Of a DNA stretch of 52,658 bases, positions 9,634 through 29,640 are shown in pieces. Where the stretch lies: the IMG/VR virus record IMGVR_UViG_3300025117_000573, positions 1 through 52,658 of that record. The stretch is one strand, 5' to 3'. The translations under genes were made by a program, and so were the position numbers. The notes under the pieces were generated by a model. It was not told the DNA's origin and did no database searches. It saw only the letters and a list, made by a program, of their open reading frames with translations. Source of the DNA: a virus. The first letter of the stretch is position 1. Every line of letters starts with the position of its first letter.

Positions 9634-9659
9634 GTAGTCAACAAAGAAAGGAATTACCT

Positions 9660-10504: not shown

Positions 10505-10518
10505 TTCGCGGAATTCAC

Positions 10519-11408: not shown

Positions 11409-11410
11409 TC

Positions 11411-11449
11411 TTGACGATGGCGTGAAACAGGTTTAGTCTGTCTACAGAC
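11411..11449 (+). promoter_or_regulatory. Possible weak promoter with a small inverted repeat
   Basis: The 64-bp gap before the glycan locus contains TTGACG (11411-11416), five of six consensus bases for a -35 box, but only a poor TAGTCT 17 bases later. A 6-bp inverted repeat GTCTGT/ACAGAC with a 2-base centre lies at 11436-11449. It could be a start point or operator for the glycan operon. There is no T-run, so it is not an intrinsic terminator. Confidence 0.22.
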
Positions 11450-11472
11450 AAGCGTGTTAAGAGAGGCAATAA

Positions 11473-11796
11473 TTGCACCACGTATTTCACTTTCAAGTTG
11501 ACGACCTGATTCCAACTAAGGAGTCCGCCGAGGACGCTCTTACAAAGATTGCGTCCACTCTCGATTCTGTCGAGCTGAATAGATGTTCGATCGTATACGA
11601 TATCGAAGATGAACCCAACATAACTGGAGTAACAGCTGTTGCGTTACTCGCAACTGGAACTGTTGTAATAACAACCTATCCCGAATTCGAAACAGCTTTT
11701 ATAGACATATCGTCGTGTCAAGATTACGACGTAGCTAAGCTAGACACTAAATTAGCTGATTTGGGATTTCATCTGCTTCCCGCTGCACAACCATGA
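11473..11796 (+). CDS. S-adenosylmethionine decarboxylase-like protein, lacks cleavage serine
   Basis: A 107-residue protein starting at TTG 11473 behind AGAGG. It follows the prokaryotic SpeD pattern: an N-terminal H..F..DDL strand, then GVTAVALL aligned with GVSGVVV, VITTYPE with TIHTWPE, and FIDISSCQ with AIDLFTCG. In true AdoMet decarboxylase the segment before the WPE-like motif is ESH, whose Ser self-cleaves to form the pyruvoyl cofactor. Here it reads ATGT, and the processing His is Thr, while the catalytic Cys is kept. The protein is therefore probably not a pyruvoyl decarboxylase. It opens the glycan locus and overlaps the next gene as ATGA. Confidence 0.6.
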   Translation: MHHVFHFQVDDLIPTKESAEDALTKIASTLDSVELNRCSIVYDIEDEPNITGVTAVALLATGTVVITTYPEFETAFIDISSCQDYDVAKLDTKLADLGFHLLPAAQP

Positions 11797-13031
11797 TCGA
11801 GGAACGGGGACTAAATAACGATGAAAAAACTACCGGGATATGGCTAGATTTGTTTCATGCGTATCCAGACCTTCATAACGCCTTTAAAAATCCGGAATCC
11901 CTGTCATACAAAGCGTGGACTCGTATACACGGGGTGAACGAACTCCCGTCGCGAATTGCCAATATGCCGGGTGGCTCGGCTAACTCTAGCAAACCGGGCT
12001 ACGTGCGATCAGCTAAAGTAGCGATGGTTGTGAATCCGTCTATCCATTGTGGTATACGGGAGCACACATCCTACTTTACCGAGCACCTCAAAACGCCTTG
12101 TGTAACAGTATCTCAAGACCCCCGAGCGCCAGATTTTTATAGTGTGGTAGCGGATTGCTTAGTAAATCGAGTAACCGTGGCCCATATACAGCACGAATTT
12201 AGTTTGTTCCTGGACCGATCGGCGTTTACGAGACTTTTAACCAAGTTAAAAGAGTCCAAGATAAAAATTGTTCTCGATCTCCACACGGGCAGCACAAAAG
12301 AAGAAGATATAAAAGATCTGACTGGTTGGGCTGGAATGTCGGATGAAGTAATAACCCATTCGGACAAAGTAAGTGCCGTAGTAGCCTCGTCTAACCCGAA
12401 GCAATTTCCCCTTGCGCTTAGAGATGACTGTTTATGGGCACAAGAAGCCGATGACTTTGTAAGAGTTGAGCCAGAGAAAGTGGACTCGTCTTTACTTGTG
12501 GGGTCGATCGGTTTTCATAACGATCATAAGGGGTTCTACCAGCTATCTCAGGCCATGGGACTTGTACGTAGAAAATTTGCTGACGCCAAACTAATGATAA
12601 TCGGGTCGCACAACTTTCCGTGGCAGGATCTTGCATTCGAGAAGGTAAAAAAAACAGCTGCTCTAGGGCCTCTTCTATTAATCGATCGATTCATGGAAAT
12701 ATCCGAAGTGGTTCGGACGCTTGGTCTATGCGACATAATCGTACTTCCATACCGAGTGAATTCTACGAGCCAATCTGGTGCTGTAGAAACGGCACTTCTG
12801 GCTGGTAGACCCGTAATAACCAGCGACTCTGAAATGTTCTCACACATCCCGACTGGGCACATTGTTGCTAAAGTTGGCGTCGACGCGACAGTAAAAGAAC
12901 TTGGCGAAACTATACGCGAGCACGCTGTTCAACAACCAAGTAGTGTTAGACTTAGCAGATATAGACTTGCTTTAAGGAGAGGCAGTTGTTTAGCCAGAGC
13001 ATATGACAACTTGTACGAAAGCTTGGCCTAA
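11793..13031 (+). CDS. GT4-type glycosyltransferase
   Basis: A 412-residue GT-B-fold glycosyltransferase, expected to move a sugar from a nucleotide donor to a glycan or protein acceptor in the cytoplasm. The C-terminal half is typical: LLVGSIGFHNDHKGF at the start of the second Rossmann domain, AKLMIIGSH, a CDIIVLPYR strand and the donor-binding region SGAVETALLAGRPVI. The N-terminal ~65 residues are polar and unassigned. It starts at ATG 11793 (ATGA overlap) and its stop overlaps the following ATG by one base. Confidence 0.8.
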   Translation: MIEERGLNNDEKTTGIWLDLFHAYPDLHNAFKNPESLSYKAWTRIHGVNELPSRIANMPGGSANSSKPGYVRSAKVAMVVNPSIHCGIREHTSYFTEHLKTPCVTVSQDPRAPDFYSVVADCLVNRVTVAHIQHEFSLFLDRSAFTRLLTKLKESKIKIVLDLHTGSTKEEDIKDLTGWAGMSDEVITHSDKVSAVVASSNPKQFPLALRDDCLWAQEADDFVRVEPEKVDSSLLVGSIGFHNDHKGFYQLSQAMGLVRRKFADAKLMIIGSHNFPWQDLAFEKVKKTAALGPLLLIDRFMEISEVVRTLGLCDIIVLPYRVNSTSQSGAVETALLAGRPVITSDSEMFSHIPTGHIVAKVGVDATVKELGETIREHAVQQPSSVRLSRYRLALRRGSCLARAYDNLYESLA

Positions 13032-13792
13032 TGGTTGCGAAGAAATCTACGTCCGTTCTCGTCTGCGTAAATTATCGAGGAGCCGAACGAGTCCGTAAAA
13101 TGCTCGACAGTGTTCCAGCAACCACCAATTTTGGTCCCGACCACGTCGTTATATACGACGACGGTGTTCCGCAAGACATAGATGAACCACGAGGTATGGA
13201 CTGGAAATTTTCCCGCCTACTTAGTAGTACTAATCTTGGTGTTGTTGGAGCGTATAATCGAGCTTGTAACTACGCCAGCGCTTTGCAAACGGATTGGATT
13301 GTTCTTGCGGATGACGATTTAGTATTTCCGGATACGTGGTGGCCAGAGTTTAATAATATAATGCAAAGCTCGCTTGCTCTTCTAATTGGCCCAATTTCGT
13401 GGAAAAGCTCGAACCGGCCGCCTCAAATAGACGGATTTCTAGAGGCAGATACGAGGCTAGCTGGTTACTGTCTTGCGTTCAAAAGGTCGTGTTACAGAGC
13501 TATTGGCGGATTCGACACAACATTTCATCATTATCACGGAGATTCTGACTTTTGTGTTCGAGCAACGGTAGCTGGAATGACGAGTTATCGATCCCACTGG
13601 CCTCTCGTACACCACACCGAACACGCATCGGTCACAGAAAATCCCGAGCTTGCTGCGGACAGATGGCGGGATACCGATACTAAGATATTCATTGAAAAGT
13701 GGGGCGAGTCAATTCTACATAACGGCTATCGCACGTCAAGCAATTTATGGTATGATCGAAGTAGTAAAATTCTAACCGGGGCGAGCCCATGA
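13031..13792 (+). CDS. GT2-family glycosyltransferase
   Basis: A 253-residue GT-A-fold enzyme. The N terminus has the nucleotide-binding strand (SVLVCVNYRGAER) and IYDDG. The metal/donor motif is ADDDLVF at ~93-99. GGFDTTF (~159-165) followed by GDSDFCVR supplies the usual catalytic acidic region. It overlaps the next gene by four bases. One of several GT2 enzymes here, which suggests a multi-sugar product. Confidence 0.82.
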   Translation: MVAKKSTSVLVCVNYRGAERVRKMLDSVPATTNFGPDHVVIYDDGVPQDIDEPRGMDWKFSRLLSSTNLGVVGAYNRACNYASALQTDWIVLADDDLVFPDTWWPEFNNIMQSSLALLIGPISWKSSNRPPQIDGFLEADTRLAGYCLAFKRSCYRAIGGFDTTFHHYHGDSDFCVRATVAGMTSYRSHWPLVHHTEHASVTENPELAADRWRDTDTKIFIEKWGESILHNGYRTSSNLWYDRSSKILTGASP

Positions 13793-14628
13793 AACTTCTA
13801 GTCGCGATTACTACTTACAACGGCCCCGAGCGCGTTTTCGCCGTTTGGCGCAGCTTTCAAACATTTCAGCCGACAACAGAGTGTAAGTTTTTGGTAGTTG
13901 ATGACGGATCGGATGGGCATCACATGCCCAAAACAATTGAAGCCACGGCAAAAAGCCTCGGTATGTCCCACATTAATCACAAAGATAACAATGGGCAACC
14001 GTGTAATCTTGGCATACCAACAGCGTGGAACACTGCTTGCGAATTCGCACAAGCGAATAATTACTCTCACGCGCTCATTTTGAACGACGACATCGAAATA
14101 CTTCCCGGGGCTGTTGATGCTGCTACATTCTTTGCCGAGAAAAACAAAGACGTAGCAACAGTAGGTCTTACATCGGTATTTCCAACCCCGTCTGGAATGA
14201 TACCGGATTGGCCCCAGTCTTTTGGACGAAATAAACCATTTATTTCGCACTACGCGAAAGGATGTGCATTCGTAATAGATATCTTGACGTGGAAGAAACT
14301 GGGCGGCTTCGACACCCGTTTTGTGTCCCACTTCGAAGATGTTGATTATGGTATTCGTGCGTCACAGGATGGGAAAGTAAATGTAACCATCCCTCAAGTC
14401 ATGTTGCACGGGTGGTCGAAAACGTTTGCCGCTAACCCGCACCTTCAGGGCCATCTTCGTCTTGAAATATCCCGCGTGCTGTTCAAAAACAAGTGGGGCA
14501 AGCCGCCATCTGACTTTCCAACTCTCACCTGCATGAACGATGGCCGAACTTATCAATATCAAGACCTTAGTGGCGTACCAAGATCAGGTCAGTTGCCGTT
14601 TGTTAAAATAGGCGCGACACAAGACTAA
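13789..14628 (+). CDS. GT2-family glycosyltransferase
   Basis: A 279-residue GT-A-fold glycosyltransferase with LVAITTYNGPERV at the N terminus, FLVVDDGSDG, the metal-binding LILNDDIEI (~97-105), and GGFDTRF followed by EDVDYGIR as acidic catalytic region. It starts in an ATGA overlap and its stop shares one base with the next ATG. Donor and acceptor cannot be predicted. Confidence 0.83.
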   Translation: MKLLVAITTYNGPERVFAVWRSFQTFQPTTECKFLVVDDGSDGHHMPKTIEATAKSLGMSHINHKDNNGQPCNLGIPTAWNTACEFAQANNYSHALILNDDIEILPGAVDAATFFAEKNKDVATVGLTSVFPTPSGMIPDWPQSFGRNKPFISHYAKGCAFVIDILTWKKLGGFDTRFVSHFEDVDYGIRASQDGKVNVTIPQVMLHGWSKTFAANPHLQGHLRLEISRVLFKNKWGKPPSDFPTLTCMNDGRTYQYQDLSGVPRSGQLPFVKIGATQD

Positions 14629-15080
14629 TGGCGTCTAGAAAGATAACAGATTACCTGTTCACGGGTGGCGTCGACACGCTAGAGGATGGGTCACTAGAAA
14701 AAATAGACCCGGCTTTCGTTGTCATCGTTCACAAATATTCATGCCCCAAGCTGAAGAAATATTCGTCTTTTACGATGATCGTCGAGCACCGAGAAACTCC
14801 AACTCAACTACAGTTACGGGAAATAATCGCAGCAGCGTCCCCTGTTCTGTCCAAAGGAAAAAAAGTTCTCGTTTTGTGTAACGACGGGAGTCAGCGCTCG
14901 TGTACAATCGCTTCCGTAATACTTGCACACGCAAATAAAGAGCCCGTAACCAGGGTTATCAACCGTATGTGTAAACAATTTCAGACTTCGGCGCAGGGGA
15001 TGCATGTTTGGTATCCATACGAGCACTGGCTCGCGGGAATTACAAAGCATTGGAATCAGCTAAAAGACTTGGTGGTGTAA
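14628..15080 (+). CDS. Dual-specificity/tyrosine phosphatase-like protein
   Basis: A 150-residue single-domain protein with the Cys-based phosphatase signature: VLVLCNDGSQRSCTIAS, giving Cys84, Arg90 and Ser91 in a CX5RS loop followed by the usual helix. The residue before Cys is Leu rather than the common His. The segment where the general acid Asp is expected reads VEHRETP, with Glu, so catalysis may be altered. The length fits a minimal DSP fold. It sits among glycosyltransferases with one-base or one-codon spacing. The substrate could be a phosphoprotein, a phosphosugar or a lipid phosphate. Confidence 0.68.
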   Translation: MASRKITDYLFTGGVDTLEDGSLEKIDPAFVVIVHKYSCPKLKKYSSFTMIVEHRETPTQLQLREIIAAASPVLSKGKKVLVLCNDGSQRSCTIASVILAHANKEPVTRVINRMCKQFQTSAQGMHVWYPYEHWLAGITKHWNQLKDLVV

Positions 15081-15081
15081 C

Positions 15082-16050
15082 TTGGCTAAACGAATAGGTA
15101 TCGGCTGTACCACGTATCGGGGCCACGCCAGGGTAGAAAATCTTTTAACGTCTATTCGTCTCCGCAATCCGGGCGTAGATCGATTAAAACTAGATGTAGC
15201 TATACACGACGATGGATCACCAGGAGGAATTCCAAAGTCTACTTACCTAGCTTTGTATAAAATGCTGGACGCAGGATTTGGAGACATAACAATCGGAGGA
15301 ACGCCAGACAATCGCGGCATAGCCCCGTCGTGGAATGCGCTAACAGATACTCTAATCAAACGAGGTGCCGACATTGTTATCCTGTTGAACGACGACATCC
15401 TTGTAGTAGATGACTGGGTAAGAACTATGGAGTATTTTCTCGACAACAATCCGTCTGCTGGGTCGGCGTCTTGGGGGTTTTACTGGTTTGACCCAGTTGA
15501 TGTGCCGGCGCTTTTAGAGAACCCGGACTCGGTTACACCCCGAACCTACGACGCGCGTAAAAAGGACTCTTCGGGCAATCGAGAACACGTTAATAGATGG
15601 GACGCGGGAGATGCGACACCTGGTCGGTTAGGCGCACCGTCGGGGTGCTGTTTTGGGTTCACTAAGGAAAAGTGGGCAGAAGCCGCGAGATTTCCGGATC
15701 ATTATAGATCCTTTCACGAGGAAACTTTTTTTTCATTCAAACGTTGTGAAAAAGGGCACCCTGCGTTTGGACTTACGTTTCCGTTCCTTTGGCATCAATG
15801 GTCAGCCACATTTCAAGAATGCCCCGAACTTAAAGCTAGCGAAACCATGACGCGATCCAGAAAGCTGTTCTGCAAAGATTTTGGTGTGCCGCCATCTATG
15901 AGCAATCACCCATTCGACTTCGCCCATCCTCGGGTTTGCGCCGTTATACCAGCGATGGACATAACGTGGATTTCGAAGAACGGGGTACAACGAGGGACTT
16001 CTCCTATTTGCGGGTGTAAGTTGTGCGTCGACTTTCGAAATTCTAAATAG
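15082..16050 (+). CDS. GT2-family glycosyltransferase with C-terminal Cys motif
   Basis: A 322-residue GT-A-fold enzyme from TTG 15082. It has GIGCTTYRGHARV, IHDDGSPGG and LLNDDILVV (~101-109), the metal-binding loop. The middle contains GAPSGCCFGF and an HEETFFSF acidic motif. The C terminus carries CGCKLCVDF, a possible metal knuckle not usual in this family. It is followed by the aminotransferase gene after 15 bases. Confidence 0.78.
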   Translation: MAKRIGIGCTTYRGHARVENLLTSIRLRNPGVDRLKLDVAIHDDGSPGGIPKSTYLALYKMLDAGFGDITIGGTPDNRGIAPSWNALTDTLIKRGADIVILLNDDILVVDDWVRTMEYFLDNNPSAGSASWGFYWFDPVDVPALLENPDSVTPRTYDARKKDSSGNREHVNRWDAGDATPGRLGAPSGCCFGFTKEKWAEAARFPDHYRSFHEETFFSFKRCEKGHPAFGLTFPFLWHQWSATFQECPELKASETMTRSRKLFCKDFGVPPSMSNHPFDFAHPRVCAVIPAMDITWISKNGVQRGTSPICGCKLCVDFRNSK

Positions 16051-16065
16051 TTCTGGGGAACTATA

Positions 16066-17175
16066 GTGATACCTGTTCTAAAGCCTAAGTACGGTATAGA
16101 AGAAGAACTGGCTGTAGCCGAAGTCCTTCGATCTGGTTGGTCCGGGTTAGGACCTCGAACAAAAAAATTCGAGGACGCTTTTGCTAACTTTATAGGAAAT
16201 GGTGTATATGTTGTTGGCACTAACAGTTGCACGTCGGCGCTGCACCTAGCGCTAGTTTTACTCGATATCGGAGAGGGAGATGAAGTAATCATCCCGGCTC
16301 TTAACTTTGTAGCCGGTGCCCACGCAATTAGATACGTGGGCGCTACTCCTGTATGGACAGACATCGACCCACATACTTTGTGCGTATCTTCCGATGACAT
16401 AGCTAGAAAGATAACCAAAAAAACGAAAGCTGTAATGGTTATGCACTATGGTGGAGAACCATGCGACATGGACTCCATACGAAGAGTTACTAAACACATC
16501 CCTGTTGTCGAAGATGCCGCGCACGCCTGCGGAGCTTTTTATCGCGGTACGCGAATAGGGAGAAATAATATTACCTGTTTCTCTTTTCACGCCGTCAAAA
16601 ACCTGTCAATGGGGGAAGGCGGCGCTCTTGTAACTCGCAGTCAACAACTTTATGAACGAGCGATAAAGCTCCGATGGTTGGGGGTAGATAAGAGTACTTG
16701 TTCGAGATCTGTTGGAGGGCATTATAGTTGGGGCTACTCTATTGATTCTGTTGGGTGGAAGTATCATCTGTCAGATGTTTCGGCGGCCATAGGTCTTGTG
16801 CAACTCGAAAAACTAGACGAAAATAATAGCCGTCGTCGGGAAATAGCGAGTCTCTACAGGTCTAGGTTGTGGTGTGTAAGTGGAGTGTCTTTAATCGGAC
16901 ACGACGTTAGAAACACGTCCGCCCAGCATCTGTTCGTCGTGAAGGTAGATCCGACAAAACGAAATGATATAATCAACAATCTCGCTGACCGTGGGATAGG
17001 TACATCCGTCCACTATCTTCCTACCTACGAGCACGATGTTTACAGATCCTCGGATCACGACTGCCCCAATACTGACGCGGTCGCTGGGTCCATCCTATCC
17101 TTACCTATGCACTTGTGGTTGACCGACGGCGATGTTGACAGTATTTCAGACGCGCTAATAGAAGCTGTGCTATGA
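16066..17175 (+). CDS. DegT/DnrJ/EryC1-type sugar aminotransferase
   Basis: A 369-residue PLP-dependent aminotransferase that converts a keto-sugar nucleotide into an amino sugar, normally using glutamate or glutamine. It starts at GTG 16066 behind GGGGAAC. Visible motifs are the substrate loop SGWSGLGP, GTNSCTSAL, the cofactor Asp in VEDAAHACGA (~Asp150), and the Schiff-base lysine in FHAVKNLSMGEGG (Lys178). Length is normal and all key residues are present. The nearby formyltransferase and GNAT genes suggest that the new amino group is then acylated. Confidence 0.92.
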   Translation: MIPVLKPKYGIEEELAVAEVLRSGWSGLGPRTKKFEDAFANFIGNGVYVVGTNSCTSALHLALVLLDIGEGDEVIIPALNFVAGAHAIRYVGATPVWTDIDPHTLCVSSDDIARKITKKTKAVMVMHYGGEPCDMDSIRRVTKHIPVVEDAAHACGAFYRGTRIGRNNITCFSFHAVKNLSMGEGGALVTRSQQLYERAIKLRWLGVDKSTCSRSVGGHYSWGYSIDSVGWKYHLSDVSAAIGLVQLEKLDENNSRRREIASLYRSRLWCVSGVSLIGHDVRNTSAQHLFVVKVDPTKRNDIINNLADRGIGTSVHYLPTYEHDVYRSSDHDCPNTDAVAGSILSLPMHLWLTDGDVDSISDALIEAVL

Positions 17176-18734
17176 CAGATAAAAAATTCTGTCGCGACCG
17201 AGTTTTATCCTATGCGTCGTCTTATGGTGGATACGCCATGTTTCCTTACATGCCTTGTCTTTTGAATGACGGCATCATTCTCGATATCGGAACGTCCGAA
17301 GGAGACGAAATACAACATTTTACACAATACCCCAACAAGATAATAGGATTCGAACCCGACGTCGAACGAGCCAAAAAAACACAGTCTCGTTTCGGCGAAA
17401 TGGCGACTGTGTTACCGATGGCCGTAACAAACGCAACCGGATCAGCTAGAATGGGTAACTGGGGAGGGGATGCTGCTAGCATACTTTGCGCTAATGACAC
17501 ATCTCCCACAGTTCAGACAGCATCTCTTAAATCGGTTGTCGAATCAACAGGACCCGTTGCCTTGATTCGTATGAATTGCGAAGGTTCGGAGTACGACATA
17601 CTTCGGTCAATAGATAAAGATCTCGCCGACAAAATATCGCAGATTTCCTTTATCTCGCACCCCCAATTTATCGGCAATACATTGTACGACGAAGAACTAA
17701 AACGTCTTGGCGAATACTTTCGTGTGTGCATAAAACAGGCGCTCCCCTGGGGGGATAGCTATTTGCTGGTAAAAAGGGGGTTGGTGTCCAACGACTTGCT
17801 TATCTCAATTCCAGTCTACGCAGCGAATAGGATAAGAAGCCTTGACCAGTTTCTACGAAACATAGACAAAAATAGTTTCTTTCGCACAGAAATAATTCTG
17901 GTTCGCGAATCTTGCGACATAGAGACGTTTCCGCAAGACGAGCTGCCGGGATTTTCTACTATGAGAGATTACTTGTACAGATTGGATACGAGTCTATTAC
18001 CAAGACTAAGCATAAGAGAAATTTTTCTGCCTGACCGGAAACAGCCGATAGCGAGTATGTTCGATTGGCATAGGAGAATGGCCGAGGCTACTAATACTGG
18101 GTTCGATTATGCGTCTACAAACTGGGTGTCCAACGTAGGAAATTGCGACTTTTATTATTCTCCCAATTGGGACATCAATCTTCTCAAGTGGGCAACAGAT
18201 CAAAAGGCACTTGTCCCGGTAGTTCTGTTCGCTTACGCGCAGTCAAATGATTTTATTCGTTTAGATGACCATTCCGCCGATAACATGTTAAACGCGTATT
18301 GGTGCTACATCCAAAGAGTAAACAAGTTTACACACGAAAGGGTGCTCGTAAAAACTCGAAATCTGTCCGATTTACACGATTACTACATCTCCGAAATCGA
18401 GTTTTTAGAATGGCTCGATGTCACCGGGATACACAAACCAAATCTACTCGTCAGCGAGAATGGATGCCACAGACACGCGATAAGCCAATACGCGCAAATC
18501 ATAGACAAAGACTTCTTTACATCTACAAACGGATTTGACCTTAGTCGTATAGCCCCTCATGACACAGATGGATGGAACCACTTCGACCAACGGCTAGCCG
18601 GGGACAATAAAAAGTACAGCCCGCAAGATTCGTTCTGTATGGAGGGACACTTTCCGATAGACTTTGATCCAGCAGAGAGAGCTGGAGTAGGTAACAGATT
18701 TTTTAGTCTGGACCAGTCTATTAGGACGTCATGA
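17172..18734 (+). CDS. FkbM-type methyltransferase fused to a glycosyltransferase-like domain
   Basis: 520 residues in two parts. Residues ~1-200 are an FkbM-family SAM-dependent methyltransferase (LDIGTSEGDE at 38-47, GFEPD at 59-63, MNCEGSEYDIL at 134-144), a family that O-methylates sugars. Residues ~205-520 match the gene at 20042: RIRSLDQFLRNIDKNSF corresponds to RILTILRFLESVNKNSF, and SPNWDINLLKW to MPNWDLNMLKW. That part looks like a divergent GT-A glycosyltransferase. The order suggests one protein that adds a sugar and caps it by methylation. ATGA-type overlaps link both ends to neighbours. Confidence 0.75.
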   Translation: MTDKKFCRDRVLSYASSYGGYAMFPYMPCLLNDGIILDIGTSEGDEIQHFTQYPNKIIGFEPDVERAKKTQSRFGEMATVLPMAVTNATGSARMGNWGGDAASILCANDTSPTVQTASLKSVVESTGPVALIRMNCEGSEYDILRSIDKDLADKISQISFISHPQFIGNTLYDEELKRLGEYFRVCIKQALPWGDSYLLVKRGLVSNDLLISIPVYAANRIRSLDQFLRNIDKNSFFRTEIILVRESCDIETFPQDELPGFSTMRDYLYRLDTSLLPRLSIREIFLPDRKQPIASMFDWHRRMAEATNTGFDYASTNWVSNVGNCDFYYSPNWDINLLKWATDQKALVPVVLFAYAQSNDFIRLDDHSADNMLNAYWCYIQRVNKFTHERVLVKTRNLSDLHDYYISEIEFLEWLDVTGIHKPNLLVSENGCHRHAISQYAQIIDKDFFTSTNGFDLSRIAPHDTDGWNHFDQRLAGDNKKYSPQDSFCMEGHFPIDFDPAERAGVGNRFFSLDQSIRTS

Positions 18735-20030: not shown

Positions 20031-20041
20031 GTAAATTGCCG

Positions 20042-21577: not shown

Positions 21578-21804
21578 TTCCGTGGCCTGGATTCACGATA
21601 CCCACATATTGTCGCAATCGGCCCGGCATAATAATGCAAAACGGTAAAGAGGATATACGTATAACGGCTCAGGAACCTACGAATTTCTGTCGGCAAATTT
21701 GCGAAAGCAACAACGGTTTAACGCAGGAAACTGAGACGTTAGATCCCGAAGTCACGCACACAAGCCCTGTCCCGATAGCCGAATTTGACTGGAGCAGTGT
21801 GTGA
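21574..21804 (+). CDS. Small protein of unknown function
   Basis: A 76-residue frame between two genes, linked by ATGA at the start and GTGA at the end, which supports its being translated. The protein is Pro/Thr/Asn-rich with three cysteines and no membrane segment. No function can be assigned. Confidence 0.5.
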   Translation: MIPWPGFTIPTYCRNRPGIIMQNGKEDIRITAQEPTNFCRQICESNNGLTQETETLDPEVTHTSPVPIAEFDWSSV

Positions 21805-22550
21805 CAAACCACAACGACTTTTCTACGTGGACTACAGCCTATATTAAAGAGCAAAATATTTGCCCCGAGTGGCACTATCTTCTGGAACACTTCGATGCAC
21901 TCGACTATCGAAGACCGAGACATCCACAACTTATGGACATACGTAAACCTAACAACGAAGTTGGGCATTTTCAGCGCGCCGTGAACATCACATGGGCCAT
22001 CAAATGCTGTCTTATACCGAATCTTACAGGTATCGAATTCGGATCGGCCGGAGTTCCTGCTCCTAGATGTGTAAACACAGACGTTCGTACTGGTCTTAAA
22101 TCACACTATCCGCCCACTACACCGGTTTCAGAGCGTGCAACTATAGGGGGTGACTTGCGAGTAGACGGAGGATTCTTTGGTGAGTCCTATCTTCGCTATG
22201 ACGAACTGTGCGGGGATACTGTCGAAGTTATGGGGACCGGGGCATTCCCGGATGGGTGTTTCAATCTTGTTCTTGCGAACCACGTCCTCGAACATATCGA
22301 AGCCGATCCTGTAGACACACTTAAAGAGTGGTCTCGACTTCTAATACCCGGAACTGGTCACATCGCTATTGTTGTTCCCGAACATCGCCCCCCGCGCTTA
22401 GATGTGTGGAAACTAGACCCAGATCACAAACACGCTTGGACAGTCGAAGAATTCGCGCAAATAGCGAAATCTGTTCCGGGGCTAGAAGTGATCGAACATG
22501 CAACTATGCTGAATCATCACTCCTTTCACACAGTGTGGAGGAAGCTGTAA
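21801..22550 (+). CDS. Class I SAM-dependent methyltransferase
   Basis: A 249-residue protein. GIEFGSAGVPAP is the probable motif I region, and FPDGCFNLVLANHVLEHIE followed by the LKEWSRLLIPGTGHIAIVVPE stretch is the typical Methyltransf_11 block (motifs IV-VI). It probably methylates a sugar or glycan end. It starts at GTG 21801 inside a GTGA overlap; the next gene starts directly after its stop. Confidence 0.75.
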   Translation: MTNHNDFSTWTTAYIKEQNICPEWHYLLEHFDALDYRRPRHPQLMDIRKPNNEVGHFQRAVNITWAIKCCLIPNLTGIEFGSAGVPAPRCVNTDVRTGLKSHYPPTTPVSERATIGGDLRVDGGFFGESYLRYDELCGDTVEVMGTGAFPDGCFNLVLANHVLEHIEADPVDTLKEWSRLLIPGTGHIAIVVPEHRPPRLDVWKLDPDHKHAWTVEEFAQIAKSVPGLEVIEHATMLNHHSFHTVWRKL

Positions 22551-23528
22551 GTGAAGATACTTTTTGTAACAGATCCAGAAGCCGACTACGGAGCCGCTTT
22601 ACTTTATCGCGGGTTGTGCACCGCTCTCGGCGAATCGAACGTAGTAGACTTTCCGTCAAAACCGACGTGGCATTCCCCGCATACCCACAAGTACACTCGC
22701 GGAGAAGTTCCGTTCTACCCAGATCACGAAGGGCTTACATCTTGGTTCGACTGGATGAAACTAACTCCAGATCTTGGTTATAACGCAGACAGAGTTCTTT
22801 CGGAGTCCGCGACATTTGACCTTACTGTTTTGTCGTCGAATCGACGAGGGGTTTGGAAAGCCTGGGACTACCTCTATCATAAAGCCAAGTTTCCGAGGGC
22901 TGTCGTTACAGATCACGAAGATCACAACCTGCTATTGACACCATCTATTGTATCCAATGTTTTGCCTATTATGTTCAAAAGGGAGTTCTTCAGTGTTCCC
23001 GTTGTCCGAGACGGCTTTAAAATTTTTCCTCTTCCGTTTAGTTGTGGATGGGCAGATCTATTAGAGCCGGGTAACCCACTCGACCCTCAAAGGTCTGGTG
23101 TGTTCCTCTCGTGCAGCATTACGCACCCACTACGCAGCATAGCGACGGCTCAGATCAACGATTTCCAACAAGGTGGGTCTGTGAACCGATGCCAGGGAGA
23201 TCGTTACGCTACGGGTCTGCGAAACGCCCTAATAGGCGTATCGGTAAGAGGGCATGGAGTCGATACTCTTAGACAATGGGAAGTCCCGTTTCACGGAGCC
23301 GCCCTTCTTACAGATTCCAGCTTAGCTATGCCTAATAATTTTGAACACGGCGTCGACTGTATTAGATACACTGACCATAGTCAACTTGGCCAAATCGTAA
23401 AAGACCTTTTAGCCGAGCCTGATATGTTACGAGACGTAGCAACGAAAGGGCAAAAGAAGTTGCTGGATTATCATACACCCAAACACAGAGCCGAATATTT
23501 TTTGGCTAGAATCAAGGAAGTAGCATGA
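22551..23528 (+). CDS. CgeB-like GT-B glycosyltransferase
   Basis: A 325-residue protein starting at GTG 22551. ILFVTDPEADYG opens a Rossmann domain. The C-terminal part has YATGLRNALIGVSVRGHG, DTLRQWEVPFHGAALLTD and GQIVKDLLAEPDMLRDVA, matching the Glyco_trans_1_2/CgeB-like family. It is paralogous to the gene at 24019: both open with F(V/L)T(D/N) and DYG, and both have a TDHED/TDMED segment. It probably transfers one sugar of the phage glycan. Confidence 0.7.
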   Translation: MKILFVTDPEADYGAALLYRGLCTALGESNVVDFPSKPTWHSPHTHKYTRGEVPFYPDHEGLTSWFDWMKLTPDLGYNADRVLSESATFDLTVLSSNRRGVWKAWDYLYHKAKFPRAVVTDHEDHNLLLTPSIVSNVLPIMFKREFFSVPVVRDGFKIFPLPFSCGWADLLEPGNPLDPQRSGVFLSCSITHPLRSIATAQINDFQQGGSVNRCQGDRYATGLRNALIGVSVRGHGVDTLRQWEVPFHGAALLTDSSLAMPNNFEHGVDCIRYTDHSQLGQIVKDLLAEPDMLRDVATKGQKKLLDYHTPKHRAEYFLARIKEVA

Positions 23529-24022
23529 TTTTCGATAAACAACCCAGGAAACGCCAGCCGTTGTCTGACCTGCGGCCACCAGATGCCGCACAAGAACCTG
23601 TTGACCCTGAATTGGTTGAGGAACTGTGTCCCCCTGTTGTGAAGTCCGATGTAAAACAGCCGGCTTTCAACGAAAAGTCAGAAATTATATTCGAAGGACC
23701 AAGGCTACCCAGTGGCATCGCAATTCGATCGGATAGACAAACGACGGCCAGGAAAGGAAAGACCCTTGTTTTTGGCTGCTTCGATAAACAACTGATTCGG
23801 AGTCTTAAGCAAGAAAACCAGCTCGTTTTTCTGGCCTTGTCTGAGAAAGAGGCCGAGTTACTTCATAGTGTAGGACTATGCGACACGATCGTCATCGCTA
23901 ACGGACTGCAACTTCCTCCGTCGGTCACTAAAGAGACTGTTGGGGGAGTTGTTCTAGGGAGTTACGGAGATGATGTTGCATCTGCCGATTCCCGCCGAAA
24001 ACTGATTGAGCATCTTATTTGA
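23525..24022 (+). CDS. Protein of unknown function between two CgeB-like genes
   Basis: 165 residues, ATGA overlap at the start and TTGA overlap at the end. The first ~75 residues are Pro/charged and probably disordered. Residues ~78-165 could be a small alpha/beta domain (TLVFGCFDK, LVFLALSEKEAELL, GVVLGSYGDD). No family recognised. Confidence 0.55.
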   Translation: MIFDKQPRKRQPLSDLRPPDAAQEPVDPELVEELCPPVVKSDVKQPAFNEKSEIIFEGPRLPSGIAIRSDRQTTARKGKTLVFGCFDKQLIRSLKQENQLVFLALSEKEAELLHSVGLCDTIVIANGLQLPPSVTKETVGGVVLGSYGDDVASADSRRKLIEHLI

Positions 24023-25179
24023 GCCGGCTACTTTTTTTAACGAATCTTGGATCGGACTACGGAGAATATTTCAATCTCCGTGGGTTTGTTAAGCTCCTCG
24101 GCAAAGATCGTGTATGGGAGTGGCCAAGAAAGAATACCTATCATGGCCTAGCTGACCACTACCCAGAACGTTACGTCGGCAATACCCATTATCTAGGCCC
24201 AAAGGGTGCTTGGGGAGAATTGTGGACTGACCCATCTCTTTATCGTTCGTGGGAACCAAGCAGATTTCCAAGCGTCCCGATGTCCGGAGACGGCCCTCTT
24301 CATTTTGTAGAACCGTTCGAGACTTACAACCCGACGTTCGAGGAGATTATAGTTGCTATAGCATCTGGCGAGATCAGCGCTATCGTTCTCGGGTCTGCAA
24401 GATGGCACAGTTCCGCTGCGTTGTCCGAGATCATGAGTGTTTTGGGTCGAGACAAGTTACCAACACTTATCTTCACCGACATGGAAGACTACTACCAAAT
24501 ACGAACGGACTTCATTGGTGCTTTCTATCCTGATGTTTACTTCAAGCGCACGTTCATCAAGCATGGCAATCCGAAAACTCTGCTAACGGGAGTCGACGTT
24601 CCCGTTCGTCCTCTTCCATTCAGCTCGATGTGGGACTTCGACTTCAAGCCGTTCGCCGAACGAACAATCGACGTGTTCTGCGTATTCGGCGCTACCCAAG
24701 TTCTTAGAAAGCTCGTTCGCGATACCGTAGTCGATACAGTAACATCTCGATTCCCGTCAGCCAAGATTATGGCTGCTGTCGGCCACCCGTTGGGGCATAA
24801 AGAGTATTTGAAAACGTTGCAAGACTCCAAGATTGTAATCGACCATCAACGCATGGGCACTGACTGTATTCGAACCTGGGAAGCCTTCGCCGCTGGCAGT
24901 TGCGTAATAGGCGACTTGCACATCGAAATGAATGATCCATTAATCCCCGGGGTTCATTTCTATCGTTACGAAAACGACATGTCTTGGCAGGGGGACCAGC
25001 AGAAGATGGATATTCTAAGGAACAGCGTAGCCTATGCTCTGGCTAATCCACAGTCTACAGAGAACGTAGCAAAGGCGGCTTACCAACATGTTCGAGAAAA
25101 GCACACCAATAAAGCCAGAGCTTTTTACATTCTGCAAGAAGCCAAAAATCTTGGTTATGATGTCGGGGACCTAGTATGA
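24019..25179 (+). CDS. CgeB-like GT-B glycosyltransferase
   Basis: 386 residues from TTG 24019. LLFLTNLGSDYGEY begins the first Rossmann domain, TLIFTDMEDYY ends it, and the second domain has IDVFCVFGATQ, KIVIDHQRMGTDCIRTWEAFAAG and a glycogen-synthase-like end. The DCIRTWEAFAAG motif corresponds to the donor-site helix of family members. It is a paralog of the gene at 22551 and overlaps both neighbours by four bases. Confidence 0.7.
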   Translation: MSRLLFLTNLGSDYGEYFNLRGFVKLLGKDRVWEWPRKNTYHGLADHYPERYVGNTHYLGPKGAWGELWTDPSLYRSWEPSRFPSVPMSGDGPLHFVEPFETYNPTFEEIIVAIASGEISAIVLGSARWHSSAALSEIMSVLGRDKLPTLIFTDMEDYYQIRTDFIGAFYPDVYFKRTFIKHGNPKTLLTGVDVPVRPLPFSSMWDFDFKPFAERTIDVFCVFGATQVLRKLVRDTVVDTVTSRFPSAKIMAAVGHPLGHKEYLKTLQDSKIVIDHQRMGTDCIRTWEAFAAGSCVIGDLHIEMNDPLIPGVHFYRYENDMSWQGDQQKMDILRNSVAYALANPQSTENVAKAAYQHVREKHTNKARAFYILQEAKNLGYDVGDLV

Positions 25180-26156
25180 GAACTATCGTAACAGGAGCCG
25201 CTGGTTTTATTGGGAGTCATCTAACTGACGAGCTGCTTCGTAGAGGCCACACTGTGGTAGGTATCGATAATCTGTCTACCGGCAGTATCAAGAACCTGCA
25301 AAACGCATTTAAAGATAGTGGATTCAACTTCTACGTAGATGATGTCGGAGCATACGACGGCAAACGAGTTTTACAAGATAGCATGGCAGTAGCAGATGTA
25401 GTCTTTCATCTAGCCGCTGTCGTAGGCGTAAAGAAGGTTGTTGCAGAGCCAGTTAATACTATCCGTACAAACGTGCGCGGAACTGAAAATGTGTTAGAAA
25501 CTGCGTCAGAGTTCGGCGTCCGAACCGTGATAGCTAGCACATCTGAAGTTTACGGGCTAAGTGACAAAGTTCCATTTACGGAGTCATCCACGCTGTGCTT
25601 GGGAGAGACTACGAAAAGTCGATGGGGGTACGCCTGTTCCAAAGCCTTAGACGAATTTCTTGGCTTTGCGTACCTGGAAGAAAAGAAACTTCCGGTAACA
25701 GTCGTCAGATTCTTCAACTGTTCCTGGGCTAGACAGTCCTCGCAATACGGAATGGTGCTACCAACGTTTATTCAAAACGCACTGGAGAATAAGCCACTTC
25801 TGGTTCACGGGACTGGGGAACAAGTTAGATGTTTTGGCGCCGCGCCCGATTACGTAGACGCAACGATTTGTGTGTCAGAATTTAGTCATACAATTGGCGA
25901 AGTTTACAATATCGGAAATCCAGATCCCGTGACAATTAACGAACTTGCTACGCGAGTTCTAGCTGCTATTCCAAGTTCGACATCGGAGATTAAAAGAATC
26001 TCGTACGACGAAGCTTACGGTAAGAAGTTCCAAGACATGGCTATCCGTATTCCAAGCGTCGAAAAAATACGTCGGGACACCGGATGGGCACCGACAAAAA
26101 ATCTAGACGACATCATCCGCTCAATACTCAACGAAAGATTACCGCTTGGCGCGTAA
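25176..26156 (+). CDS. NAD-dependent sugar epimerase/dehydratase (extended SDR)
   Basis: 326 residues. VTGAAGFIGSHL carries the dinucleotide-binding GxxGxxG at 7-13. FHLAAVVGV, the active-site STSEVYG (~121-127) and Tyr152/Lys156 in YACSK complete an extended short-chain dehydrogenase. VRFFNC and CFGAAPDYVDA match UDP-glucose 4-epimerase/GDP-mannose-dehydratase relatives. It would supply or interconvert nucleotide sugars. It overlaps the next gene, also an SDR, by 11 bases. Confidence 0.88.
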   Translation: MRTIVTGAAGFIGSHLTDELLRRGHTVVGIDNLSTGSIKNLQNAFKDSGFNFYVDDVGAYDGKRVLQDSMAVADVVFHLAAVVGVKKVVAEPVNTIRTNVRGTENVLETASEFGVRTVIASTSEVYGLSDKVPFTESSTLCLGETTKSRWGYACSKALDEFLGFAYLEEKKLPVTVVRFFNCSWARQSSQYGMVLPTFIQNALENKPLLVHGTGEQVRCFGAAPDYVDATICVSEFSHTIGEVYNIGNPDPVTINELATRVLAAIPSSTSEIKRISYDEAYGKKFQDMAIRIPSVEKIRRDTGWAPTKNLDDIIRSILNERLPLGA

Positions 26157-27147
26157 CATCCTTGTAACTGGTGGATCAGGATTTATCGGCCATCATATTT
26201 GCCGAGAACTACGAGACTTAGGCCATCGAGTCACAAGTGTTGACTCTATGGTTGGTGGGCGTAATGTAGTTCCAGGAGTTCCCCTCCTAGTGGGAGATAT
26301 TTCTGACCACGCATTCGCTAGGTATGTAGCAGATGTTACAAAGCCAGAAATTATCGCCCATCTTGCTGCCGACCCGCGAGAGGGGGCGTCATGGTATCGA
26401 ATCGACTCAGTAACAAGAAACAATCTCGGAGCCTTTTCATCTATCGTAGAGGCGTGCCTTCGCCACAAGTTAAAGCGAATCGTATCTTTTTCTAGTATGT
26501 CTGTTTACGGAGATCAGATGCCTCCGTTTACGGAAGATATGCCAACTAAGCCAGTCGATCCATACGGAGTAAACAAGGAAGCTATCGAGAAAACAACACG
26601 GATGATAGCAGATGCTCACTCCTTAGACTGGTGCATCGTCCGACCGCACAACGTAATAGGCCCAGGCCAGTTTGTAGACCCTCTACGAAACGTCGCCACA
26701 ATTCTAGCCAACAAGGCAGTTGCTGGGGAGCATATGACTGTATACGGGGACGGGTTACAGACAAGGGCGTTTTCGAACATCCAAGATTCTCTTAGTTGTT
26801 ACATTAAGTGTATTCTTTCTTCCGACGCCAACGGGCATACGTTTAACATCGGGGGGGAAGTCAAAACAACAGTCCTTGCGATGGCTGGGATTATTCAAGG
26901 ACTTGTTCCGAACGCAAAGATCGAACACCTGCAAAGCCGGTACGGGGAAGTAAAACACGCTTTTTGCGACCACACAAAAGCAAAACAATTACTTGGGTTC
27001 CGCGAGAACATTGGGTGGGAACAAGCTGTAATCGATATTGTGGATTGGGTAAAACGTTGTGGCCCATTTCCCTGGGAGCCAACCCTACTGTCTACTCCGT
27101 GTGATAAGGCCCCAAAACATTGGAAGACATCTTTGTATGACGAATGA
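26146..27147 (+). CDS. NAD-dependent sugar epimerase/dehydratase (extended SDR)
   Basis: 333 residues from TTG 26146, starting inside the previous SDR gene. GGSGFIGHH is the cofactor loop, AHLAADP the following strand, SFSSMSVYGD the catalytic Ser/Thr region, and Tyr140/Lys144 in DPYGVNKEA the catalytic pair. IVRPHNVIGPGQ follows as in UDP-glucose 4-epimerases. Two consecutive SDR genes suggest a two-step conversion of a nucleotide sugar, for example dehydration then epimerisation; the substrates cannot be read from sequence. Confidence 0.87.
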   Translation: MARNILVTGGSGFIGHHICRELRDLGHRVTSVDSMVGGRNVVPGVPLLVGDISDHAFARYVADVTKPEIIAHLAADPREGASWYRIDSVTRNNLGAFSSIVEACLRHKLKRIVSFSSMSVYGDQMPPFTEDMPTKPVDPYGVNKEAIEKTTRMIADAHSLDWCIVRPHNVIGPGQFVDPLRNVATILANKAVAGEHMTVYGDGLQTRAFSNIQDSLSCYIKCILSSDANGHTFNIGGEVKTTVLAMAGIIQGLVPNAKIEHLQSRYGEVKHAFCDHTKAKQLLGFRENIGWEQAVIDIVDWVKRCGPFPWEPTLLSTPCDKAPKHWKTSLYDE

Positions 27148-27472
27148 CATTACAGGATTTCTAAAGACTGTAGATCACTTAGGCAGCAAAATTCCCCGGC
27201 ATCTCCAAAAAGAGCTTATCGAATATGTCGAAGAATTACGGGCCGCACTTGACGACGATGAATTAGACCTGTTCAGACGTAACATCCAACAGGACATCGT
27301 GTTTTCTTATGATTGGCAGTCGGTTACAATACTTTTGTTCTTGCAACATCTAGTAAGTGGCAACTTTGGGTTTGCTGCCGATCTTTTTGCTATATTGGCG
27401 ACCGCCGCCCAAGACGGAGACTACGACATCTTTAAACATGTACGAAACACGCTAGGCGTTTTCACTAGTTAG
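27137..27472 (+). CDS. Small helical protein of unknown function
   Basis: 111 residues from ATG 27137, which overlaps the end of the second SDR gene; an upstream in-frame start at 27059 would give an unlikely long overlap. The protein is mostly helical (IPRHLQKELIEYVEELRAAL), acidic, with a hydrophobic middle that is probably a soluble helical bundle. No family recognised. Confidence 0.6.
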   Translation: MTNDITGFLKTVDHLGSKIPRHLQKELIEYVEELRAALDDDELDLFRRNIQQDIVFSYDWQSVTILLFLQHLVSGNFGFAADLFAILATAAQDGDYDIFKHVRNTLGVFTS

Positions 27473-27474
27473 CC

Positions 27475-28161
27475 GTGTCGAACCATAAACCTACTGTTGA
27501 TGTTATTATCCCATCATCTGGACGAGCTTCATTAGCTGGTATCTACTCTGCGTGGACTAATCTTGCAAACAACGAACACGATATTGGTGTTCGCATTATT
27601 GTTGTTCAAGATGGCAAATTCCAGCTACCAAATGGCGCTCGAAATTCAAAATGGTCTGTTAAAAAACACACTGGGAATCCGGGATTTCTGGTTGGAAATG
27701 CAATTCACGGGTCAACAGCGGATTATGTGGTACATGGATTTGATGACGATCCACCATCCAACATCCATCAGCTCGTATTACGATGTCACGAAACCCGAGC
27801 TGACTGGTGCTCGTCTAAAGTAGAAGAGCTGCGCGAAGACAGGCAACCAGCTACTATTTATGATGGCATCCCAGGCGACTACCTCCTACACCGAAATACT
27901 GTGCCCCTACAGGGGTGCGTATTCAGGCGGTCATTATTCAAACGAATTCAGTTTTTCGAGCCGGATACGCCTTTTTGGAGATACGATCATGACTTTGTCC
28001 TTCGACTGCATCTTACGGGTGCTACTCACACCCACGTAGACTCGATATGTGGTTGGTGGGTAATAAACCCAGAAGGCATTACATCTACGATTTCTGATCG
28101 CGGCTACTCGATGGTGTGGCAGGACCGGCGAAGCGACGTGTGGAAGCAGTATCGTGGCTAG
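27475..28161 (+). CDS. GT2-like glycosyltransferase
   Basis: 228 residues from GTG 27475. VDVIIPSSGRASL is the nucleotide-binding strand, HGFDDDPPSN is the metal-binding acidic loop, and FRRSLFKRIQFF then WRYDHDFVLRLH form the acceptor/catalytic side. It is shorter than most GT2 enzymes, but the core is complete. It overlaps the next gene by eight bases. Confidence 0.72.
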   Translation: MSNHKPTVDVIIPSSGRASLAGIYSAWTNLANNEHDIGVRIIVVQDGKFQLPNGARNSKWSVKKHTGNPGFLVGNAIHGSTADYVVHGFDDDPPSNIHQLVLRCHETRADWCSSKVEELREDRQPATIYDGIPGDYLLHRNTVPLQGCVFRRSLFKRIQFFEPDTPFWRYDHDFVLRLHLTGATHTHVDSICGWWVINPEGITSTISDRGYSMVWQDRRSDVWKQYRG

Positions 28162-29026
28162 AGTTTTGGTATTTGATCCGTCTGACGGGATTGGCGGCGG
28201 ACAGCGCTGGAGCAAAGACTTTGCTACGTGGCTATCTGCTTTCCACGATGTTACATTCGTTGGAAACGGCGAACCCTCGCCAAAATGTGCGTATCAGTAC
28301 TTCTTCGACATGCGGCCAGTTGGAGTCCCCATATCGGCTAAGAAACACTTCACGTGGTGCCACGTCCCACTAGCTGGAACTACGGCATCCTGGATTCATC
28401 AGACTACTGTAATTGCGTCTAGCAAGTGGAGCGCAGAGCAGGTAAAATCGGCGTGGGGAATAACTCCGGTCGTCTTACCGCTATTCGGCAAGACGAGAGG
28501 GCGTACAAATAACAAGGGCGTTTTGTTTCACGGCCGACTAACTGTACCGAAGGGTGTAGCCAAAGCCGTAGAAATCTTCCGACGGGGGAATTTCGAAGTG
28601 CCAGTTACAATTGCAGGTTCAACTTGCAATACCCATAAAGATGCTTTGAAGGTGCTTAGAGAGGAATGCCGGTTTCTTGGAGTATCGCTAATCGAGGACC
28701 CGAGCGAGTCGGTTGTAGATGAACTTTACCACTCTCACAGCGTATTTTTACAAACAGCTGGATGGACTACGGGTCCGCCCGAAGCGTTTGGTCTTGCTGC
28801 TGCCGACGCTTATCTATCAGGGCTCAACGTAATTGCATATCCCGCCGGGGCTATAATTGAATGGCTGCCAAAAGAACACTGGGCGTACTCGACAGATGAA
28901 TTTGTGCTCAAAATAGATTGGGCTCTCAACAGCACTTTCGTCCCAGATCTTGATGTTTGTTTAAATATCTCGGATTACGGGTTTATCGAACGAGTCAGGG
29001 GGGTAATACCATTTCTGCTAGAGTAG
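28154..29026 (+). CDS. GT4-type glycosyltransferase, compact
   Basis: 290 residues from GTG 28154. The start has the glycine-rich VFDPSDGIGGGQRW typical of GT-B enzymes. GVLFHGRLTVPKGVAKAVEIF opens the donor domain, and GPPEAFGLAAADAYLSGLNVIAY is the donor-site EX7E-like region. The length is short for GT4 because the acceptor domain is reduced. It probably acts on the same glycan as its neighbours. Confidence 0.75.
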   Translation: MARVLVFDPSDGIGGGQRWSKDFATWLSAFHDVTFVGNGEPSPKCAYQYFFDMRPVGVPISAKKHFTWCHVPLAGTTASWIHQTTVIASSKWSAEQVKSAWGITPVVLPLFGKTRGRTNNKGVLFHGRLTVPKGVAKAVEIFRRGNFEVPVTIAGSTCNTHKDALKVLREECRFLGVSLIEDPSESVVDELYHSHSVFLQTAGWTTGPPEAFGLAAADAYLSGLNVIAYPAGAIIEWLPKEHWAYSTDEFVLKIDWALNSTFVPDLDVCLNISDYGFIERVRGVIPFLLE

Positions 29027-29028
29027 TT

Positions 29029-29640
29029 ATGATTGGTTATCGGTCGCATGAAATTGAGGACGAGACACGTACTTTGATGTTCGACATGACACCAGAAGCA
29101 CATTGTGTATTCATCGATAATACAAAAGATAACATTCCACTTACAACTCTGTGGAATCGGATCGTAAAAAATGCGGCCGAACAACTCGTGTTTCTTCTCA
29201 ATGTCGATGTATGGGTGTCTCCTGGCTGGATTATTCCCCTTCTAAAGGCATTCGAAAACCCATCCGTTTCGGTAGTTGGCCCAGGCGCAAATCAAGGCAC
29301 TAATCGAATAGACATAGGTACAAATGAAATACCAGCCAGCCCGTGCCGTGGTTGGCTAGAGAGAGCTGCTATCACAGCAATCGAACGCTACAAAGGACAA
29401 ATCCTGGACAAAGACGTTTTGGGGTTTTGTTTTGGACTACGGAGACGTACTTGGCACGAAATAGGCGGTTTTGACGAGTCCATTCCTTTTTACGGAAACG
29501 AAACAGATTACAATCGTAGAGTTGTTGCTCACGGTAAACGAGTGGTCAAATGCTTCGACTCATACGTATATCACCGAGGCAAATTCAGCTTTGACCAAGT
29601 CGATAAGGAAGAAAAGAAAAAATTAGCGCCGCCGAAATAA
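29029..29640 (+). CDS. GT2-like glycosyltransferase, last gene of the rightward block
   Basis: At least 203 residues. FLLNVDVWVSPGWI is the metal-binding acidic loop, GFCFGLRRRTWHEIGGFDESI and GNETDYNRRV the acceptor/catalytic region. The start is uncertain. ATG 29029 would cut into the first beta strand (RVVMIGY) and lacks a ribosome binding site. ATT 29011 sits 7 bases behind AGGGGGG, and TTG 28957 needs a 70-base overlap. The 3' end runs 18 bases into the last leftward gene, tail to tail. Confidence 0.7.
   Translation: MIGYRSHEIEDETRTLMFDMTPEAHCVFIDNTKDNIPLTTLWNRIVKNAAEQLVFLLNVDVWVSPGWIIPLLKAFENPSVSVVGPGANQGTNRIDIGTNEIPASPCRGWLERAAITAIERYKGQILDKDVLGFCFGLRRRTWHEIGGFDESIPFYGNETDYNRRVVAHGKRVVKCFDSYVYHRGKFSFDQVDKEEKKKLAPPK

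Follow-up and report, generated by a model that had tools for sequence, protein, structure and literature searches.

An 18-kb gene run of a tailed phage as a possible cytoplasmic glycosylation module supplied by Arn-like donor-sugar enzymes

The 52,658-base virus record IMGVR_UViG_3300025117_000573, analysed here over its whole length as the window, carries at positions 11473-29640 a tightly packed run of 22 open reading frames (ORFs), all on the + strand, that we read as the cytoplasmic glycosylation module of a tailed phage, with virion proteins of the capsid or tail proposed, at moderate confidence, as the most likely site of the glycan. A preliminary description of this DNA had delimited the same ORFs, coordinates and strand as a glycan locus of about twenty genes, which is confirmed with small corrections. 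The first ORF (11473-11796) matches AdoMet_dc (34.6 bits vs. a cut-off of 25) and resembles an S-adenosylmethionine (SAM) decarboxylase; it probably has no part in the glycan pathway, which places the start of the glycan genes at 11793. The enzymes that had been named, two short-chain dehydrogenases/reductases (SDR1 and SDR2), an aminotransferase, a formyltransferase, a GNAT N-acetyltransferase and methyltransferases (FkbM and Methyltransf_11 domains), all exceed the curated Pfam cut-offs, as do seven glycosyltransferases. Two further IMG/VR records (prefix 3300025087) match the window with 0 mismatches, G001 over 13518-52658 and G002 over 1-13509, and the three records together give a phage composite of 109,493 bases that is open at both ends and adds 56.8 kb of flank.

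Gene content, enzyme families, Arn-type motifs and the negatives for the searched export and hydroxymethylase families are observed; which sugar is made, in what sequence of reactions and for which acceptor we infer from them as follows. SDR1 would decarboxylate uridine diphosphate (UDP)-glucuronate of the host to a UDP-4-keto-pentose, which the ArnB-like transaminase would convert to a UDP-4-amino-4-deoxy-pentose, whose amine would then be capped by the formyltransferase or the GNAT enzyme. SDR2 would provide a second, C4-epimerised donor. From these donors, ten apparently soluble glycosyltransferases and two methyltransferase domains would build up and complete a cytoplasmic oligosaccharide, most likely attached to virion proteins of the capsid or tail. 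A capped 4-amino-pentose of the Arn type appears a fairly probable identity for the sugar, judged from sequence comparison.

SDR1 (25176-26156) is of the UDP-glucuronate decarboxylase (ArnA/UXS) type. Its best match in a PDB search was UDP-glucuronic acid decarboxylase 1 (142.5 bits), which we take to be the human UXS1 structure, followed by 8vr2 (118 bits) and ArnA (108 bits). When SDR1 is aligned to ArnA of E. coli K-12, the motifs STSEVYG, RWxYxxSK and YGKxxQD are common to both proteins. The residues of an ArnA-type oxidative decarboxylase (TSE, RWxYxxSK and YGKxxQD), whose roles in ArnA are general knowledge, are therefore present, whereas the dehydratase RffG reads TDE instead of TSE and lacks both RWxYxxSK and YGKxxQD; one Asn and one Arg of ArnA are kept in SDR1, but also in RffG. 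The E-value likewise favours ArnA (4e-36 vs. 1e-25 for RffG). SDR1 has matches in 239 of the 50,697 phage records searched (E 1e-10), none of which reaches 60% identity, and an IMG/VR relative at 43% identity (L033) has no other locus genes in the stretch covered. SDR2 (26146-27147) is of the 4-epimerase type: it carries the SSMSVYG motif typical of epimerases, and its top match among solved structures is MoeE5. The aminotransferase (16066-17175; DegT, 354.8 bits) shares 38.5% identity with ArnB of E. coli K-12 in an alignment of 377 columns, and in the PDB search ArnB (244 bits) led 2fn6, presumably PseC (119.5 bits); its matches in 84 of the 50,697 phage records (E 1e-3) are again all below 60% identity. 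The formyltransferase (18731-19528; Formyl_trans_N, 53.2 bits vs. 26.1) is 26% identical to the N-terminal domain of ArnA and retains NxH, KYRG and the Asp, with another formyltransferase (5uin/5uij) as its best PDB match and ArnA third. The GNAT enzyme (19440-20030, start probably downstream, e.g. 19494; Acetyltransf_3, 51.7 bits vs. 25.4) has PseH as its best NCBIfam model, at 63.3 bits and under the cut-off of 93.1. None of SDR1, the aminotransferase and the formyltransferase reaches an NCBIfam cut-off.

Several results weigh against an Arn-type pentose. By identity, SDR1 stands at 28.2% to ArnA vs. 29.4% to RffG, and among NCBIfam models LegB scores 141.5 bits on it vs. 143.2 for the pentose-synthase model, both far under their cut-offs. 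In a tree of 13 SDRs, whose node supports range from 0.18 to 1.0, SDR1 pairs with the phage SDR of L033 and next joins ArnA and SDR2 (node support 0.925), a placement that does not mark ArnA as its particular relative. The aminotransferase gives PseC a slight lead over ArnB in NCBIfam (308 vs. 296 bits) and lies below the ArnB equivalog cut-off (295.5 vs. 631). A UDP-glucose dehydrogenase was found in none of the three phage records (13 of 14 controls positive), which would leave the host as the source of UDP-glucuronate. The LegB score of SDR1, with PseC and PseH as top NCBIfam matches of the aminotransferase and the GNAT enzyme, would fit a UDP-4-amino-4,6-dideoxy-N-acetylhexosamine (legionaminate-, pseudaminate- or bacillosamine-like) made from UDP-N-acetylglucosamine (UDP-GlcNAc), an identity that we consider rather unlikely and with which the acceptor may still be the virion. 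The LegB match stops at residue 268 of SDR1, short of the C-terminal YGKxxQD, whereas the pentose-synthase model extends to residue 319; PseB is confined to residues 4-121, and the PDB ranking of ArnB above 2fn6 also speaks for the Arn-type pentose rather than the hexosamine.

The preliminary count of about ten transferases was borne out: ten glycosyltransferases are assigned, seven above the curated Pfam cut-off (two of them narrowly) and three by paralogy or a sub-threshold match. GT-B folds are represented by the probable first glycan gene (11793-13031; Glyco_trans_1_4, 36.1 bits vs. 27; no PHROG match), by 22551-23528 (Glyco_trans_1_2, 49.4 vs. 25) and its paralogue 24019-25179 (44.7 vs. 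25; blastp 1e-12), and by 28154-29026 (Glycos_transf_1, 30.9 vs. 26.4; PHROG glycosyltransferase, 1e-5). GT2-type enzymes matching Glycos_transf_2 (cut-off 23.3) are encoded at 13031-13792 (36 bits; PHROG glycosyltransferase, 5e-9), 13789-14628 (24.5 bits; PHROG galactosyl transferase, 4e-7) and 28957-29640 (23.9 bits; start probably downstream). The weaker assignments are 15082-16050, a GT2-type paralogue of 13789 (no Pfam match; phrog_2456, 7.8e-5; blastp 2e-13), the C-terminal GT2-like part (16.7 bits, below cut-off) of a fusion whose other domain is an FkbM methyltransferase (17172-18734; FkbM_fam, 55.9 vs. 37.7), and 20036-21577, a paralogue of that C-terminal part (blastp 29% over 189 columns, E 8e-14) with no Pfam or PHROG match. 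A genome-level search with PF00535 recovered 13031 and 28957, placed 17172 below cut-off and missed 13789. By blastp the transferases form paralogue groups (13031/13789/15082/28957, 17172/20036 and 22551/24019), and part of the set may therefore come from duplication. Three of the ten (20036, 17172 and 24019) had no match at 1e-3 in the phage records, while IMG/VR contigs held weak relatives of 13789 in three cases and of 13031 in two of those three; the transferases of the locus are thus without close relatives in these searches.

The claimed lack of a flippase or polymerase held for Polysacc_synt, Wzy_C and a membrane scan across the window and the 56.8 kb of flank. Polysacc_synt, Bac_transf and Wzy_C were found in none of the three phage records (~109.5 kb composite), with 13, 9 and 9 of 14 controls positive, respectively. 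In the hydropathy scan of 446 ORFs (≥60 amino acids, six frames), a threshold of 1.8 gave no ORF with as many as three membrane segments. Lowering it to 1.6 brought just the tape measure to three, while the five ORFs with two all lie antisense to longer ORFs. Controls gave 11 segments for ArnT, 3 for ArnE, 4 for ArnF, 2 for ArnC, 11 for WecA and 2 for WzzE. Four of the 22 locus proteins, two of them transferases, have one hydrophobic segment at 1.6 and none has more, while the soluble controls ArnA and RffG also show one. The membrane scan revealed no ArnT- or ArnE/ArnF-like multi-pass ORF in the composite, whereas it flagged the E. coli counterparts, and no ArnC-like two-segment protein among the locus proteins; Pfam likewise gave none of them a deformylase match, no search aimed at the ArnC or ArnD families having been made. 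Two points count on the other side: ArnC and WzzE show only two segments each, so two-segment proteins would not stand out, and the ends of the composite are open, so genes that were not found could lie beyond them. The export-family negatives argue against a self-contained surface polysaccharide pathway.

These results bear on the host surface as target, which the phage transferases could still serve by feeding host export machinery. Lipopolysaccharide or capsule might be remodelled during infection, with superinfection or adsorption to debris blocked, by way of a host lipid carrier or lipopolysaccharide core and host Wzx or ABC export. Arn and O-antigen enzymes usually serve the cell surface, and arnA is reported to be virus-enriched, and is discussed with regard to lipid A, in a global ocean survey (PMC11360552). 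We nevertheless hold such remodelling to be unlikely, given the missing Bac_transf, Wzy_C and Polysacc_synt matches, the absence of a transporter-like ORF in these searches, the single hydrophobic segment at most in each locus protein, and the grouping of the genes with virion and lysis-like genes instead of the replication block. The same orientation with virion genes, the lack of export families and the low hydrophobicity sustain the proposal of cytoplasmic, phage-encoded glycosylation; the virion as acceptor of the glycan is the less certain part of the reading. A hint of capsid glycosylation may come from a 211-amino-acid glycosyltransferase-like ORF situated 51 bases downstream of the major capsid gene (L010:1910-2545; window-scale -9035 to -8400), for which two glycosyltransferase families of PHROG give weak matches (E 0.002 and 0.003). 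Counting against that hint, searches of Pfam, NCBIfam and phages returned nothing for the ORF, PF00535 is silent on it, the top PDB entry, GmaR, falls short of significance (E 0.24), and its structure model is poor (mean predicted local distance difference test score, pLDDT, 33). Ser/Thr content singled out no acceptor among 14 virion-region proteins, the highest values (0.22-0.225) belonging to proteins of 740, 786 and 109 amino acids.

Phage DNA, another target proposed earlier, is weakened because no thymidylate-synthase-family hydroxymethylase was found: Thymidylat_synt (PF00303, the dCMP hydroxymethylase family) gave no match in any of the three phage records (9 of 14 controls positive), and the sole thymidylate-synthase PHROG match seen falls in residues 304-381 of the NAMPT ORF at 44010, within an apparent intein. 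Tet_JBP likewise gave no match in the three records, but its controls were also silent. A glycan placed on DNA bases against restriction accordingly seems improbable, even though pentose-decorated DNA is known in RB69 (PMC6024577) and Thanatos (PMC12838424), and the phage encodes an N6/N4 DNA methylase and a weakly DruA-like ORF; both precedents have dCMP hydroxymethylase homologues, where none was found here, and the locus is distant from the polymerase genes. It is more improbable still, to the point of being hardly credible, that the cluster is a host polysaccharide island misjoined to phage sequence. Contigs with such genes were removed as possible host islands in the ocean-virus survey (PMC11360552), but here phage genes lie on both flanks inside the window record, base composition is similar throughout, isolated phages carry similar clusters, and the joint at either flank recurs, 100% identical, in one further record, although the three records may not stem from independent samples.

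The preferred reading of a virion glycosylation module can be put more specifically, in a form that is possible but doubtful as a whole: Arn chemistry, known for polymyxin resistance, would have moved out of its lipid context, with a capped 4-amino-pentose and ten soluble transferases yielding a branched oligosaccharide on the capsid or tail, one transferase being encoded beside the capsid gene. If the virion reading is right, environmental phages make complex glycans for their particles from dedicated amino-sugar donors. Adsorption would be affected, as would the way in which grazers or immune systems recognise the particles, and the arnA-type genes of ocean virus surveys would be taken as a sign of virion decoration instead of lipid A modification. 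With soluble transferases fed by Arn chemistry, the locus suggests such an alternative to the lipid A reading of viral arnA, and three of its enzymes are open to direct assay.

The remaining genes of the run complete its layout. Two ORFs call for qualification: 14628-15080 is dual-specificity-phosphatase-like but stays under the Pfam cut-off (DSPc, 25.7 bits vs. 33.5), and 27475-28161 matches no family in Pfam or PHROG and nothing significant in the PDB, being a possible GT-A protein by eye only (model pLDDT 37). A SAM-dependent methyltransferase is encoded at 21801-22550 (Methyltransf_11, 29.8 bits vs. 21.2). Three ORFs are without assignment, namely the small 21574-21804 (no Pfam match), 23525-24022 (no Pfam or PHROG match) and 27059-27472 (no Pfam match; start probably 27137). 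The listed starts 19440, 27059 and 28957 are probably too far upstream, since they create overlaps of 70-90 bases with the preceding genes, and shorter starts (19494, 27137 and 29032) were used for these three; 29032 marks a truncated frame rather than a start because its first codon is ATT. With this set, 14 of the 21 junctions overlap by 1-11 bases and one by 35, and six are gaps of 0-15 bases. In the SAM-decarboxylase-like protein at the head of the run, the position of the processing motif, which we would expect to be Glu-Ser-His, seems to read Thr-Gly-Thr, and the usual activity may be lost. Positions 13510-13517, inside the gene 13031-13792, are bridged by the window record alone, G001 and G002 ending within nine bases of each other, and probably mark an assembly breakpoint.

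The locus shares its orientation with the tail, virion and lysis-like genes and lies away from the replication and polymerase genes. Upstream are tail genes and then a set of small genes, carrying lipobox-like or membrane segments, which by eye resemble a lysis cassette, the lipobox-like ones being a hint, again by eye only, of a Gram-negative host; downstream is a convergent - strand block that includes helicase, polymerase, NAMPT and phosphoribosyl pyrophosphate (PRPP) synthetase genes. The left extension of the composite adds terminase, portal, protease, capsid and minor tail family matches, and the right extension SNF2-type helicase, RNA-ligase and nuclease genes with a large ORF that is primase-like by eye. 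Base composition is alike along the whole window. Promoter- and terminator-like sites show no clear excess at either border, with 8 and 6 at 9-12.5 kb (shuffle means 5.0 and 3.0) and 4 and 2 at 28.5-31.5 kb (5.0 and 2.7). When the first 25 kb were compared at near-DNA level with the 50,697 phage records, no close relative of the whole phage appeared; tape measure and polymerase searches of phages returned many matches, all below 60% identity, and the IMG/VR scans also returned two loci with a helicase at 37%. Immediately ahead of the tape measure, the tail genes include one for an RNA-guided nuclease of the TnpB family (L009:14128-15411, - strand; window-scale -1901 to -618), and its two 26% matches among genome contigs, in cyanobacterial bins, are uninformative for the host.

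Other genes of the phage are recorded here in their own right. The weakly DruA-like ORF (33564-34115, - strand; match below cut-off) is Mom-like by eye and possibly acts in DNA modification. In the product of the NAMPT gene (44010-46415, - strand), residues 304-614 resemble PHROGs of ribonucleotide reductase and PhoH and are probably an intein; the gene adjoins the PRPP synthetase gene (46693-47463, - strand), and a macro-domain protein (48845-49378, - strand) occurs in the same phage as these nicotinamide adenine dinucleotide salvage genes. Beyond the window, neighbouring genes at L005:967-4962 (window-scale 74355-78350) encode a BCS1-like AAA ATPase, a 347-amino-acid protein without assignment, a protein resembling JAB (Prok-JAB under its cut-off; a weak likeness to Cap3) and an E1-like enzyme of ThiF/MoeB type that stays under the NCBIfam cut-offs, a set that looks like a phage ubiquitin-like conjugation cassette. 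The large terminase is matched in different portions by two separate ORFs at L010:8124-11355 (- strand), which flank a weakly phosphatase-like gene, and L010:11432-12313 (- strand) has sulfotransferase matches below cut-offs (E 0.03-0.04), possibly a further glycan-finishing enzyme outside the locus if the match is real.

Among known systems, the E. coli Arn pathway shares an ArnB-like transaminase, an ArnA-type decarboxylase and a formyltransferase with the locus, but has a fused ArnA, whereas the phage carries separate genes and no ArnT-, ArnE- or ArnF-like membrane protein was found in the composite. Mycobacteriophage transferases act on capsid and tail-tube proteins (PMC12363180), with one transferase named there for each of Che8, Corndog and Myrna, as opposed to ten with dedicated donor synthesis here. 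Phage genes have been proposed to make pentose donors in RB69, for arabinosyl-hydroxymethylcytosine (PMC6024577), and in Thanatos, where a UDP-xylose pyrophosphorylase was shown in vitro (PMC12838424); a hydroxymethylase homologue is described in both, unlike in this phage, where none was found. DLP5 carries a small run of deacetylase, WcaG, WecE, methyltransferase and one transferase, and Mosig a long run of aminotransferase, MoaA-like, carbamoyltransferase and methyltransferase genes, which was left out of the size comparison because no glycosyltransferase is annotated in it. AG-345-F15, a further comparator, carries no annotation. The Aphanizomenon phage Yong-DA (L028; ON073792.1, 10000-42586) was rejected as a precedent on account of its plasmid-like content, with Wzy, Wzc, export and ParAB genes; no phage structural genes are annotated in that stretch, which may be a plasmid, and it remains among the nine comparator loci of the tblastn search.

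Closest in kind are clusters of two cyanophages and a Flavobacterium phage. In that tblastn search of the 22 locus proteins (1e-3), only the aminotransferase (16066), SDR1 (25176) and SDR2 (26146) matched, and no homologue of the locus transferases appeared in the nine loci. The cyanophages ACG-2014f and S-SKS1 likewise hold contiguous nucleotide-sugar SDRs, transferases and other sugar genes, so that several nucleotide-sugar enzymes and transferases in a single phage gene run resemble the cyanophage-type clusters. ACG-2014f adds an aminotransferase, a methyltransferase and an additional sulfotransferase, near a tail fibre gene, and the S-SKS1 cluster, many of whose genes are annotated as hypothetical, lies near a baseplate gene. 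The cluster of Flavobacterium phage immuto, ~4 kb after holin and chitinase genes, contains glycosyltransferases, two WecE-type transaminase genes, an epimerase and a methyltransferase, with no formyltransferase annotated. In all three, similarity to the locus is detectable only in the SDR and aminotransferase proteins. The earlier remark that the locus is large even for such phages stands in part: at 18 kb it is longer than these three annotated multi-glycosyltransferase clusters, the comparison covering only ACG-2014f (~10 kb), immuto (~11 kb) and S-SKS1 (~15 kb) in our own delimitation. Since comparable clusters exist in these phages, a locus of this kind is already known.

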